The notes under the pieces: generated by a model
Seen by the model: only the letters and a program-made list of their open reading frames with translations
Told to the model about the DNA's origin: nothing
The model's database searches: none
Translations under genes and position numbers: made by a program
Assembly (NCBI GenBank): GCA_025201345.1
Contig: JAIXMG010000007.1
Span: forward strand, 868,001-932,000
Length of the DNA stretch: 64,000 bases
Source of the DNA: Thamnidium elegans
Lineage: Eukaryota > Mucoromycota > Mucoromycetes > Mucorales > Mucoraceae
Direction: 5' to 3'
In this document: positions 28,645-33,406 of the stretch, piece by piece
How the letters are laid out: every line of letters starts with the position of its first letter
How positions within the stretch are numbered: the stretch's first letter is position 1

Positions 28645-29672
28645 TTAAAAGTAGTTCGGGATATACAGTATAATATTTTCAACTTTGTCTTCAGGGTTAG
28701 AGTCGGATTTTGATTGATGTAAGATATGAATTCCTTTTAGGTTGATTGATCTTGATAATGCAACATAAATTTGGCCGTGAGTAAATGCGGGGCTGCGAAA
28801 GTCGATACCAACGTTTGATAATGAGTGTCCTTGTGATTTGTTAATAGTCATAGCAAAGATAAGCTTGACAGGAAACTGTTTTCTGGTTAGGATGAAAGGA
28901 TATTCATATTCTAAAGTGAAGAGCTGAATTCGAGGAATGATTTCAATTTGCTCGTTTATAGATCCATTGTCATGCATCACTGCAACTATTAAAGTGTATG
29001 CCAAAATATCTTTTACAATAAGCCTTGTTCCGTTGCATAGACCTTTTTCGGGGCCGAGGTTTCTAAGTAACATAATTATACAACCCTTTTTTAAAATTAG
29101 TTTAGCAGGAGGAAAGTTGGCAGGATTGAGAGTATGAAGATACTCTGTCGATATCTGTTGTATCTCATCATTTTCTTGTTCAGAAGTTTCAACAGAATCA
29201 GATGAAAGTAAAGTTGTTGTATCTCCAGGCATCAAGTTGAGAACCTTTTCATTCAAAGCGTCTACAACTGAGTTCTGGGTAGTCAAAATAGCTGATTTAA
29301 AAAAGATTTGTGGGTTTCCCAGCGAGTTATCAAGATTTTGTTGAGGGTAGACTTTGGAGATAGGTTCATTCGGTGAGTGTAGCTGATTTATATAAGCTGG
29401 AAAAGGAATTTTTTGATTTTGAAACTTTGTGTTGTAGGAGATTAGGTTCAACCATTTTTAAAAGTGGATATCGTTTGAAGATGTACCTCGAACATGCATG
29501 TTGGTACGAAGGTGGATGGTTTTGACTTCTTGCCAGATGTAAGAGTTCCTAATGGAAGCATCAACTATCATGATTCGATTTCCATTTTTGATAACTGGTG
29601 GAATTTGGGCAAAGTCACCGCCTAATACAATAGGTATACCACCAAATATTTGATCAGCGTCGAAGCATAGTT
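28645..29672 (-). pseudogene. PIF1-like helicase relic, type 2 (Helitron-style)
   Basis: The minus-strand frame begins within KLCFDADQIFGGIPIVLGGD and FAQIPPVI, the motif-II/III region of Helitron-type PIF1 helicases. It meets a TAA after SSNDIHF (about 29459) and then stays open for 268 codons to the stop at 28645. The open part has an element-type NGTRLIVKDI block, FAMTINKSQGHSLSNVGID (motif V) and HGQIYVALSRS (motif VI). The Walker A half and any Rep domain are missing, so the gene is 5'-truncated and interrupted. Sequence and motif spelling differ clearly from the relic at 27541-28330, so the two come from different families. Confidence 0.78.
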
Positions 29673-30559
29673 TGTATTTACTGTATTTTCACAGGTTATT
29701 AAGAAAGAGCAAGTGAATATTTGGGAAAGTTTAAATACAATTATTGAGAAAGATTCAGAATTTTTTTGGAAATCCTTTTTGTATAAGTAGTATATAAAAA
29801 GAGACATATTGTTGCGCTTCTTATTTTAAAAAGTTAAATATACAACAGTGTATTTCCTTCTTCATTGTGACTTTTAACTCCATTTATCTTAAGGCTGTGA
29901 TTTGACTCTTTAGTTTCTGAGGGTTTTTGTCGGTTGGATAAAAAGTTGTGTTTTTAAGATGTGATGCATATTGAGCGTTGGTTTTTTTTCTTCTATAGAA
30001 GAGAGATTGTTACATAAATCTTTTAATGAAATATAATTGAGATAAACCCTAATACAAATAGAGTTTCTTTTATATGTATATTAAAAGTATAAGAATCAGT
30101 TATTTAGGATATTTAGGAGAAATAAAGTATACATCATTTATACAAGTGTGATGTTATCATATAACAAGCTACATAAAACTATATACACCAATAATTTTAT
30201 CTATGTATTAATTAGATTTCTTTCTTATTATAAACAACTATATAAATTAAAAACAATTGTGTGCAAACAAGATTTTACCTATTGCAGCTTACTTATCGAA
30301 ATAACACAATGATACAAGTTGTTTCAAATACACGTATAGACAGTTGTTATAACAGATTCGAGAGCATACTGTAAAAGGCTTTGTTATCACCAACTTTTTT
30401 TTTTCCGAAATGATAAAATAGCTGTTTAAAAAGGGGTATTTTATCATCTTTTTTTTTTTTGTGTGTGATAGTTATTATTATATCATAAATCATCAACCGG
30501 TATAAAATACAGAGTGAATATGATGATCTTCACCTCTTTATTTTCTTTATTTACAAAAT
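29673..30559. other. AT-rich spacer, no gene seen
   Basis: About 890 bp of low-complexity AT-rich DNA. No splice-supported frame. The helicase frame upstream of 29672 is degraded. Confidence 0.45.
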
Positions 30560-31287
30560 ATGGTCCCACCCAAGAGAATAAAAGGTAGATTTAAGAATAT
30601 ATTAATTTTTATAAAGCCCGTTAACACTAACTCTTAATTATGACAGACCCCTCAGAAGAAGATTCTTCAGAAGATAACCAAGAATCTGCACGAAAAATTC
30701 AAAGAAAAGGGAAAGGCAATATTAATAAAAACAAATCAACACTTCAAGTATCTTTACCTATCCTAGCAGAAAAAGATACTTCGCAGGTTGAGCAAGCTAC
30801 TGAATTTAACCAGGACTCGGAAACCGAAGATGGTACGTTGGTAAAGTCCAGACATATGGTGATTGAAGATAGTAACAAGAAGTGGAAGCAGATTTCCCCT
30901 GGTGATGGACCAGAAGAATCAAACAAACCTGTTGTACTTGCTTTTGGCGCTGCCATGTTTGGTAACTTGAGAGGAAACGTACCTGCTCCTACCAAAGTCG
31001 TTAAAGACTCTCTCATTGAATTTGCTCGCCAAAGAAACAAAAAAGTACCAACTTATGTTGTAATGGTTGATGAATATCTGACTTCACAAATATATCCTAG
31101 GTGCCAAACCAGAACAACCTCGAACGAAAAAACCAGCTCCGGCTTAAAAATACACCCTGTACTCAAATGATATACTTGTGATACACGGTGGAATAGAGAC
31201 CATATGGCTGGTATGAATATTCGTTCCGTTTTTCTTTATATGGTTCAAAATAACAACATTCGCCCAGAAGTCTTTAGGAGGACATAA
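30560..31287 (+). pseudogene. TnpB/Fanzor-type nuclease C-terminal module fused to an acidic, lysine-rich N-terminus; zinc ribbon broken
   Basis: Exon 1 (30560-30584, MVPPKRIK) splices in phase to exon 2 (30647-31170), giving 182 aa up to a TGA. A single-exon start at 30640 is also possible. Residues about 10-100 are acidic, Lys-rich and probably disordered. Then come PVVLAFGAAMFGNLRGNVPA and VVMVDEYLTSQIYPRCQ, matching the pattern of Fanzor/TnpB just before the zinc ribbon (V-D-E-(Y/F)-x-T-S-x-x-C-x-x-C). The same frame continues past the TGA with YTCDTRWNRDHMAGMNIRS (RuvC-III-like RD-x-x-A-x-N-I) and ends RPEVFRRT at 31287. The first Cys of each knuckle is lost: one is Tyr, the other is the TGA stop. 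No RuvC-I Asp region is present, so it cannot be an active nuclease. Confidence 0.68.
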
Positions 31288-31777
31288 TCCCTCATCTTAA
31301 CTTATATCCTTTATAACATTTGGATAACCCTTATTTACTTTCGGTAAGTTCTTTTTTTCTTAACTATAACTTTTTTTTTCTCTTTTTTTCTTTTTGAACT
31401 GTTTACTAACATATTTTTATATCAAATTTATCTCAAATTCTGTATTCAAATTTCCTCAATAACTATATTTATCTTTTCTCAAAAACACTACTTATTTTTT
31501 CTCAATATCCTATGAAAATAAAGTATAATAGCTAGATAATTGCTGCTTTTGTGACTGTTAATTGGAAAAGCTATGTTATTTAGGAAAAACAAAAGGGTGT
31601 TTCTCTATTAAAAAAACGCCCTAAAAAAAGGATCACCATGACAGCCAATAAAATCAACGGATTGTTGAATCTGCATCCATTTATATATTTTTAAAAAGGC
31701 CTTTTTTTTTACTTGAGTAATCTAATTTAAGTCACTAGACAAAAAAAGAACCCTTTTTTTAAACAATACAAAAAAAT
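31288..31777. other. Spacer upstream of the RING gene
   Basis: About 490 bp rich in T-runs. No gene was seen. It probably includes the promoter of the RNF220-like gene. Confidence 0.4.
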
Positions 31778-32656
31778 ATGGCTTCTTCCGACGATAACTT
31801 TGAATATAACAAAAAGTCTAATGGACAACCATTGTAACGTAACTCTTTTTAAAAAAAAATTAAATAAAAAAAAGAAGTTTTTCTTGTCGGATTTTTGATT
31901 TTTTTTTTGTTGACTCTATTTTTTTATATTAGAAGAAAGAAACGGTCGAGGAGAGAGTTGGATACCCTTAATGATAATAATAGTAGTCGAGGTATTATTA
32001 TTATTATTTTGTTGCTAATTTTATGCAAAAAGCTAACTTTTTCTATCTCTTTCATTAGCTCGACGAGATTTACCAAAATGTCCCGTTTGTGAGTACCGTA
32101 TAGAACCCATGTATTGGGAAGAACATTATCAATATGAACTTGGTCGATTATCCGAACCAACCTCTGAAGCGTACACCGACCCTTTAAATAAAAAGTACAT
32201 GATAGAATTAATTCTCCGTTTATTTTTTTATGCAAAATATTAACTTGAAATTATAGTAAAGGTAAACGGGGTGCTGCAGTAGCTGCTAAAAGACAATTGG
32301 AACAAAGCAAAGGTAAAAAGAAATCCACATCTGTATATGAAGAAACACTAGAGAAAATACAAAAGAACAGACAAAAGAGAAACGATCGTTTAAAGCAATT
32401 GGATGGTTCCAGTATCAAACACGAAGAACGTCCTGCAAGAGTAGCACAAAATGATTCAGAAGTTGCTTTACAGGTCATGTTAAATGATGCCGATGTACAG
32501 ACTTGCTTTATTTGTAACGAAAGGCTATATGGTGATTTAGAAGCTGTTAATCTTCATATCGATAATTGTCTATCTAATCCGGCTCGACAGGTCGAAGAAG
32601 AACAAGAGGAAGAGGAAGAAGAAGCAGATTTTGATGAGTCGGATGAAGATAATAAT

Positions 32657-32691
<35 letters not shown>

Positions 32692-33406
32692 CGATAATAA
32701 TAATAATAATAATAATAATAATAGCAGTTCACAGCCTAATCAAGGTTGGGAAGAGTACGAATGGGCTGGTCAAGTACGTGTAAGAGCAACTGCAATGATG
32801 GAAGGTGGTTATGGAGGCGCTGGTTTCGCCACTTCGAGTAAAAGAGATGAGGATGAAGATGAGGAAGATTTGGATGTAGAGGACGATGATGCGGCTCAAT
32901 TCGGACAGAGTCAATATACAGAAAGAGATATTGTTGTTAATATGGATGATGATACTGAAGATGCATCTGCATTACGAGAGATGGTATCTGGTGGAACCGT
33001 GCGCACACCAACCTCTGACAGGTAAATGAAATTAATATTATAATAACGACAACAACAAAAAAAATAACATTATATGTATAGCGGCGAAAGACAAGATTTT
33101 GAAGAAACTGTATCTGTTACAGGATGGGATAATCACTTGAAAAAAGAAGTGTATCGTACTGGAGAAAGTCACTCCAAATTAGTGATTGAATCATTGAAAT
33201 CACGTATCCATCAATTAGAAGATGCTTCTCGGTCTACACCACGCTGTCTTATTTGCCTCGAATCATACAAGACACCACTGACATCTATTGTATGCTGGCA
33301 TGTACATTGTGAACAGTGTTGGTTACAAACGCTTGGTTCAAAGAAATTATGTCCGCAATGTCAAAAAATTACTACTCCTTCTGATTTAAGACGTATTTAT
33401 CTTTAA
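31778..33406 (+). CDS. RNF220-like RING-type E3 ubiquitin ligase
   Basis: Five exons (31778-31833, 31933-31991, 32059-32194, 32257-33021, 33082-33406) give 446 aa. Exon 3 encodes a first zinc module CPVCEYRIEPMYWEEHYQYE, matching the CPIC...H...E repeat at the start of RNF220. A second C2H2/C-type finger is CFICNERLYGDLEAVNLHID followed by NC. A poly-Asn tract (about 30 residues with a few Asp) follows. The C-terminal RING is CLICLESYKTPLTSIVCWHV, then HCEQCW and LCPQCQKITTPSDLRRIYL, almost identical in pattern to animal RNF220, including the invariant DLRRIYL tail. A coiled-coil precedes the RING. The Asn tract is encoded by AAC/AAT repeats and is probably length-variable. Confidence 0.9.
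32650..32725 (+). repeat. Coding AAC/AAT trinucleotide repeat (poly-Asn)
   Basis: AAC-rich then AAT-rich triplets, interrupted by GAT, within the RING gene. It lies in frame and produces an Asn tract in the disordered linker. Confidence 0.9.

Follow-up and report, generated by a model that had tools for sequence, protein, structure and literature searches.

At one locus of the fungus Thamnidium elegans (Mucorales), an open reading frame appears to join an acidic, Lys-rich N-terminus to the C-terminal part of a TnpB/Fanzor-type protein whose zinc ribbon has lost cysteines. An earlier note, made from the letters of this DNA, left two readings side by side, a recently dead nuclease and a domesticated, truncated protein of 182 aa. 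Which of the two does the locus hold, and how did the fusion arise? We analyzed the window, that is, the whole 64,000-nucleotide stretch containing the locus (C62:868001-932000), together with the rest of the T. elegans genome (34.1 Mb, 64 contigs). Copies elsewhere in the genome are labelled by their contig (C9, C39 and so on). We find that the locus is very probably a decayed pseudogene within a non-autonomous Fanzor1 element, an inverted-repeat DNA transposon that likely moved in trans and shows no detectable constraint. The features are collected in Table 1.

Table 1. Positions in the window of the transposon, its modules and the coding remnant
Feature	Positions	Strand	Remark
TA flank (target-site duplication), left	29679-29680	.	
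Left terminal inverted repeat, ~107 nt, imperfect	29681-29787	+	
5' module	29681-30404	+	common to A-type Fanzor elements, short copies and the C9 element
Acidic-exon module, from the leader through exons 1 and 2 into exon 3	30405-30805	+	94.7% over 430 columns with C9
Exon 1 (MVPPKRIK + G)	30560-30584	+	sister-copy gene models P0003 and P0007 begin with exon 1
Intron 1 (GT-AG, 62 nt)	30585-30646	+	copy-by-copy intron comparison
Exon 2, acidic Ser/Glu/Asp, then Lys-rich	30647-30715	+	retained in gene models P0001 and P0002
Former intron 2, reduced to 54 nt without a stop (donor GT to GC, 4 nt lost)	30716-30769	+	removed by splicing in model P0001
43-nt filler at the mosaic junction	30806-30848	+	in DNA searches, seen in the 8 short copies alone
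Fanzor1-type C-terminus with RuvC-II, zinc ribbon and RuvC-III, broken by the TGA at 31168	30849-31287	+	
Zinc-ribbon Cys 1 to Tyr (TAT)	31093-31095	+	window copy alone; Cys in 19/19 other copies examined
Zinc-ribbon Cys 3 to TGA stop	31168-31170	+	window copy alone; Cys in 17/17 other copies covering the site
Right terminal inverted repeat	31417-31523	-	
TA flank (target-site duplication), right	31524-31525	.	

A Fanzor-type zinc ribbon with two private lesions

The zinc-ribbon profile PF07282 (Cas12f1-like_TNB) matched the frame at 33.8 bits (E 3.7e-8, cut-off 26.3) once the TGA was read through, and fell short of the cut-off, at 13.9 bits (E 0.061), when the frame ended at the TGA. Run over all six frames of the genome, this profile listed 21 places, 19 of them over the cut-off, and the window locus was among them with 30.2 bits. 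Because the match exceeds the cut-off and the locus appears in the genome-wide listing, we regard the TnpB/Fanzor zinc ribbon as real and not as a chance match. This bears out the module type that had been proposed from the letters.

The zinc knuckles are damaged as described in the earlier note, with one cysteine lost from each (Cys 1 reads TAT and Cys 3 reads TGA). The window copy retains Cys 2 and Cys 4, and so does not carry the four zinc cysteines expected of Fanzor1 and TnpB. The RuvC-III Asp that the note had placed in frame past the TGA is indeed there (WNRDH, 31198), and the site holds Asp in 15 of the 18 copies covering it, the losses being in C32, C34 and C15. The alternative RuvC-II Glu at 31072, six residues ahead of the first CxxC (VDEYLTSQI[C/Y]PRC), is a Glu in all 20 copies examined. 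Cys 2 is lost in C18. P0012, a 190-aa relative with an open frame, has Tyr at Cys 1 and Phe at Cys 3, where the window copy has Tyr and a stop. The loss of Cys 1 and Cys 3 in both may be a coincidence, expected in 1 case in 6.

A profile of the C-terminal part was also compared with solved structures, giving weak matches to TnpB (9nzp, E 0.0021), Guillardia theta Fanzor1 (9cer, 0.0026), Parasitella parasitica Fanzor1 (9cf0, 0.01, over profile positions 50-186) and Spizellomyces Fanzor (8gkh, 0.12). No match reached E < 0.001, yet the best four are all of the TnpB/Fanzor kind. Nine cullin-3 chains in the same search (E 0.29-0.37) were taken as chance. By phmmer, an A-type frame matched TnpB at no better than E 0.036 and Fanzor1 at no better than E 0.069 among the solved structures, and P0015, a protein of a second lineage (B), matched none of them. 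With regard to an omega RNA at the element's 3' end, a search of Rfam gave no family match at gathering scores, and RNAalifold z scores were -2.27 for that end taken together with the inverted repeat and between -1.59 and 0.64 for six further stretches. No match appeared in a search of phage records, which may omit close records.

A short inverted-repeat element flanked by TA

The coding remnant lies within an element of 1,843 bp (29681-31523). Aligned locally, its left end and the reverse complement of its right end score 82, and the maximum in 200 single-base shuffles was 51. With up to 3 mismatches allowed, a genome scan located the left end CTGTATTTTCACAGGTTATTAAGAAAGAG 17 times and the reversed control pattern not once. 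Among the 21 sequences examined, left ends were found in 15, with TA adjoining in 12 of them, and right ends in 12, all adjoined by TA. Both ends were found in 10 copies, eight of which, the window copy included, have TA on both sides. The window element has the inverted repeats and the TA duplication of a Tc1/mariner-like non-autonomous element, and the TA target duplications make it most likely that a Tc1/mariner-like transposase moved it in trans.

Searching the genome with the DNA of 29660-31560 gave 63 matches. Eight copies, including the one in the window, have the same short mosaic structure, and we refer to these as the short copies.

Some candidates for the other components of such a system were noted. 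A 3.5-kb stretch at C35:202567-206059 is bounded by similar inverted repeats and contains no PF07282 place; it is a possible autonomous partner. No transposase with such inverted repeats came to light among the matches listed (for DDE_3, 150 of the 406 candidates were scored), none of the DDE_3 or DDE_1 places lying within that stretch. The DDE_3 domain has at least 165 matches in the genome, a number of them with open frames of more than 300 aa, and these open-frame places are candidate suppliers of a transposase.

Two neighbors were recorded in the window. A remnant of a PIF1-type helicase (minus strand, 28645-29688) adjoins the left end of the Fanzor element; PF21530 matches it with 57.3 bits over 28645-29457, and its continuation in another frame (29458-29688) was judged by eye. 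It is perhaps a decayed Helitron. On the other side, a plus-strand gene at about 31779-33406, the extent of which is a guess, encodes a RING finger (PF13923, 54 bits at 33068-33403) as well as long asparagine runs and acidic runs.

A mosaic of four pieces

Comparison of the copies divides the element into four pieces of different distribution, counting the 43-nt filler (Table 1). The clear similarity of the 5' module to the A-type copies stops at a poly-T tract near 30404 (30428 at most). The acidic-exon module that follows is present in seven of the eight short copies and in the C9 element; the remaining short copy, C39, lacks 30532-30778. The 3' end common to the A-type elements comprises 30849-31523, and some short copies break off within it. 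A probe across the junction (30740-30870) found nine places in the genome, namely the eight short copies and C9, which matches it over the first 66 bases only.

In the C9 element, the acidic module is followed by the second Fanzor lineage, B. Between P0015 of this lineage and an A-type frame, 25% of residues are identical over 293 columns. A query joined from the C9 frames found 18 proteins, with Helicostylum, Mucor flavus, Pilaira and T. elegans among the sources and PF07282 in three of them. A lineage-B Fanzor segment matched 40 places in the genome, many at 30-45% identity, and on this similarity the T. elegans genome appears to hold many Fanzor-like copies outside the family studied here.

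We also considered whether lineage B proteins begin with the acidic exon. This was ruled out by P0032, an annotated lineage B protein that starts differently and carries the NINTLCQYVFNN stretch deep inside. Because the N-terminus of P0032 differs, we do not read the acidic module as the front of B, and C9 is also read as a fusion. Judged from these comparisons, the acidic part is a separate module, the front of neither Fanzor lineage seen here. At the sensitivity of the searches run, no host gene was found in the genome as its source; residues 1-67 matched only copies of the element and C9. It is tempting to see the acidic, basic-tipped leader exon as a portable 5' cassette carried on two Fanzor lineages, and to imagine that the RuvC-I-less proteins of open copies assist full-length Fanzors, or compete with them, in trans; we offer this as a long shot.

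RuvC-I is missing from every short copy

The available part of one study describes two Fanzor signatures, the DPG motif at RuvC-I and an alternative RuvC-II Glu lying six residues ahead of the zinc ribbon (PMC10711439). The long A-type copies (C27, C34 and C32) contain WGVDPGL, far upstream of the common 3' part, although the listed frames of all three are broken; some 2 kb is gone from other A-type copies. With a RuvC-I query taken from one long copy, we found matches in all three long copies and in C48, an A-type deletion copy. None of the eight short copies matched, and DPG is absent from every forward frame of all eight, so the RuvC-I DPG of Fanzor1 and TnpB is lacking throughout the short family.

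The absence of RuvC-I from all short copies indicates that the nuclease was lost before the cysteines. From what is known of the RuvC triad, the Fanzor part without RuvC-I is unable to cut DNA. The earlier view that the nuclease is dead holds, and it does so regardless of the cysteines: the RuvC-I DPG and the part preceding it in the long copies are missing from all eight short copies.

A former intron keeps the window frame open

The frame from 30647 runs open until the TGA and, with exon 1, encodes 182 aa. Intron 1 has both splice sites preserved in all eight aligned rows that span it (the window, six other short copies and C9); the row of C39 is without this stretch. The second intron has changed in the window. 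It is 58 nt long with GT-AG ends in all six other short copies that cover the site, and in C9 it is also 58 nt, with AT instead of GT. In the window it is GC-AG and 54 nt, a multiple of three with no stop, and now forms 18 codons.

The window frame thus looks intact because 4 nt were lost within the old 58-nt intron, leaving 54 open bases. The acidic, Lys-rich N-terminus is in frame with the Fanzor part, in agreement with the earlier note, and the rest of the frame is open as claimed there, though only by reading through a shortened intron. From the 4-nt difference, one might suppose that the acidic and Fanzor frames are out of phase in the sister copies; this was ruled out, as the gene models splice the 58-nt intron.

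Predicted gene models on T. elegans sister copies treat the exons in two ways. P0001 and P0002, drawn with an ATG inside intron 1, splice the acidic exon to (E)KDTS...RHMVIED, and P0003 and P0007 join MVPPKRIK straight to the third exon, skipping the acidic exon. If these predictions hold, the fusion would be in frame through splicing in the sister copies.

Decay without detectable constraint

In order to compare substitutions, we aligned the codons of a C-terminal 145-codon segment in 20 copies (12 A-type, 8 short), out of 26 places holding part of the 3' module. The places outside the codon counts are C8:391791, C28:131456, C23:329275, C1:2034618, C1:2223475 and C13:171789, and insertions absent from the window were removed from the codon alignment. 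Among substitutions private to one copy, 33 of 120 are synonymous, and the fraction expected without constraint is 0.21-0.27 (with transitions weighted 1, 2 or 4, p is 0.06, 0.21 or 0.44, respectively). Substitutions common to several copies give 12 synonymous out of 42 (p 0.17-0.44). Purifying selection on the frame was not detected across the 20 copies, the pattern being indistinguishable from neutral; this is a failure to reject neutrality, with p 0.06 at equal transition and transversion rates. Mean identity in the coding stretches (0.941 and 0.953) falls within that of the non-coding ones (0.934-0.963). The private changes of the window copy are five non-synonymous, one stop and none synonymous.

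Five of the seven other short copies (C5, C10b, C15, C39 and C62b) have a frameshift, stop or truncation ahead of the RuvC-III Asp. The other two, C18 and C10a, have stop-to-stop frames of 220 aa and 202 aa that run through the zinc ribbon and past the Asp; behind the Asp these two have a 2-nt insertion and a stop, so that both are altered close to the end. On the evidence of these frames, some member of the family may still give a product.

We speculated whether such short Fanzor proteins, from some of the eight copies, are useful to the elements by modulating a full-length Fanzor or the transposase. The frames of C10a and C18, which traverse the zinc ribbon, and the gene models on sister copies are in line with this idea. 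We nevertheless consider it very unlikely, given the neutral-looking substitutions across 20 copies, the breakage of five of the seven other short copies and the altered sequence behind the Asp in C18 and C10a, the additional absence of Cys 2 from C18, and the lack of RuvC-I in all eight.

The second possibility is that the fungus has domesticated the 182-aa protein made from the element and uses it, for example, as a nuclease-inactive regulator that binds DNA or RNA. The long open frame kept by reading through the intron in phase, the basic MVPPKRIK start with its acidic stretch, and the open relative P0012, likewise without Cys 1 and Cys 3, agree with such a role. Against this, the cysteine lesions are private to the window copy, its private changes include no synonymous one, the inverted repeats are still recognizable, and no protein identical to that of the window locus occurs among the 14 relatives found. 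The product would end within the zinc ribbon and would have no RuvC-I, and the resemblance to P0012 counts for little, since loss of the same pair among four cysteines is expected at the 1-in-6 rate given above. We judge domestication to be very unlikely, and nothing found in these sequences suggests use by the fungus. Of the two readings first offered, decay fits the private changes and the neutral-like pattern, and domestication is left without support.

Finally, it is highly improbable that two neighboring genes, one with the acidic part and one with the Fanzor part, only seem joined, as other coding sequence after the acidic exon in C9 and its skipping in P0003 and P0007 might hint, since both parts lie within one pair of inverted repeats, the same join recurs in the seven short copies that hold the acidic exon, and the predicted models P0001 and P0002 splice across it.

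A proposed history of the element

We return to the reading of a decayed, non-autonomous element. The ends, the copies, the mosaic junction, the missing RuvC-I, the private lesions and the substitution pattern are direct observations, from which we propose the following steps. Recombination would have joined the 5' module with the acidic exons to the 3' end of a Fanzor1-type element, inside the coding sequence. The joined gene, which lacked RuvC-I, presumably held its frame via splicing. The short mosaic may then have spread to at least eight places, most likely moved through its inverted repeats by a transposase acting in trans, with the Fanzor part as a passenger. In trees of the 5' module and of the 3' module, resolution is poor and the short copies do not group together with support; because of this, it is the common junction alone that argues for a single origin. 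The short copies would have drifted afterwards without detectable constraint and probably without function. In the window copy, the donor of the second intron would have changed, 4 nt of that intron would have been lost, and Cys 1 and Cys 3 would have disappeared.

Relation to known Fanzor and TnpB systems

The element is a new case within an established kind. With it, the Fanzor elements gain a mosaic family that has no RuvC-I, exists in several copies and has clear ends; such a family is useful for tracing the recombination and decay of Fanzor-bearing transposons. It also illustrates a trap for gene prediction, in that an intron decaying into open sequence can yield a fusion frame that looks intact. 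The knowledge of Fanzor function is unchanged by it. In the open-licence literature, neither Thamnidium Fanzors nor a domesticated Fanzor were found among the matches listed (titles and abstract starts).

Parasitella parasitica belongs to the same order as Thamnidium. In the portion available, the report on its Fanzor1, PpFz1 (PDB 9cf0), presents the full-length protein solved with guide RNA (PMC11423790). Our locus resembles PpFz1 in its weak match to this Fanzor1 of a same-order fungus, and differs from it as far as that report shows in being a truncated fragment.

The closest parallel is the work of Bao and Jurka, the available text of which describes mariner elements that carry Fanzor1 and have TA duplications but no transposase, as well as Fanzor1 elements that are chimeric (Bao and Jurka, 2013; PMC3627910). 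Chimeric Fanzor1 elements were thus already in print, including ones with common 5' and unrelated 3' parts, and internally deleted copies are described there. Mucor, Rhizopus and Phycomyces are among the fungi in its table, and Thamnidium is not in the part of the table shown. Like those elements, as described in that text, ours combines a Fanzor-type C-terminal motif with inverted repeats and TA duplications and has no transposase inside. Unlike them, the short copies have no RuvC-I at all and carry an acidic leader exon.

A last comparison concerns TnpB-type proteins that no longer cut. TldRs are nuclease-dead TnpB relatives. The source available to us in part presents them as RNA-guided transcription factors related to TnpB. 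With TldRs, so far as that source describes them, the window copy shares a TnpB-type protein without nuclease activity; in contrast to these regulators of host genes, it shows no constraint and is without the front half of a Fanzor.
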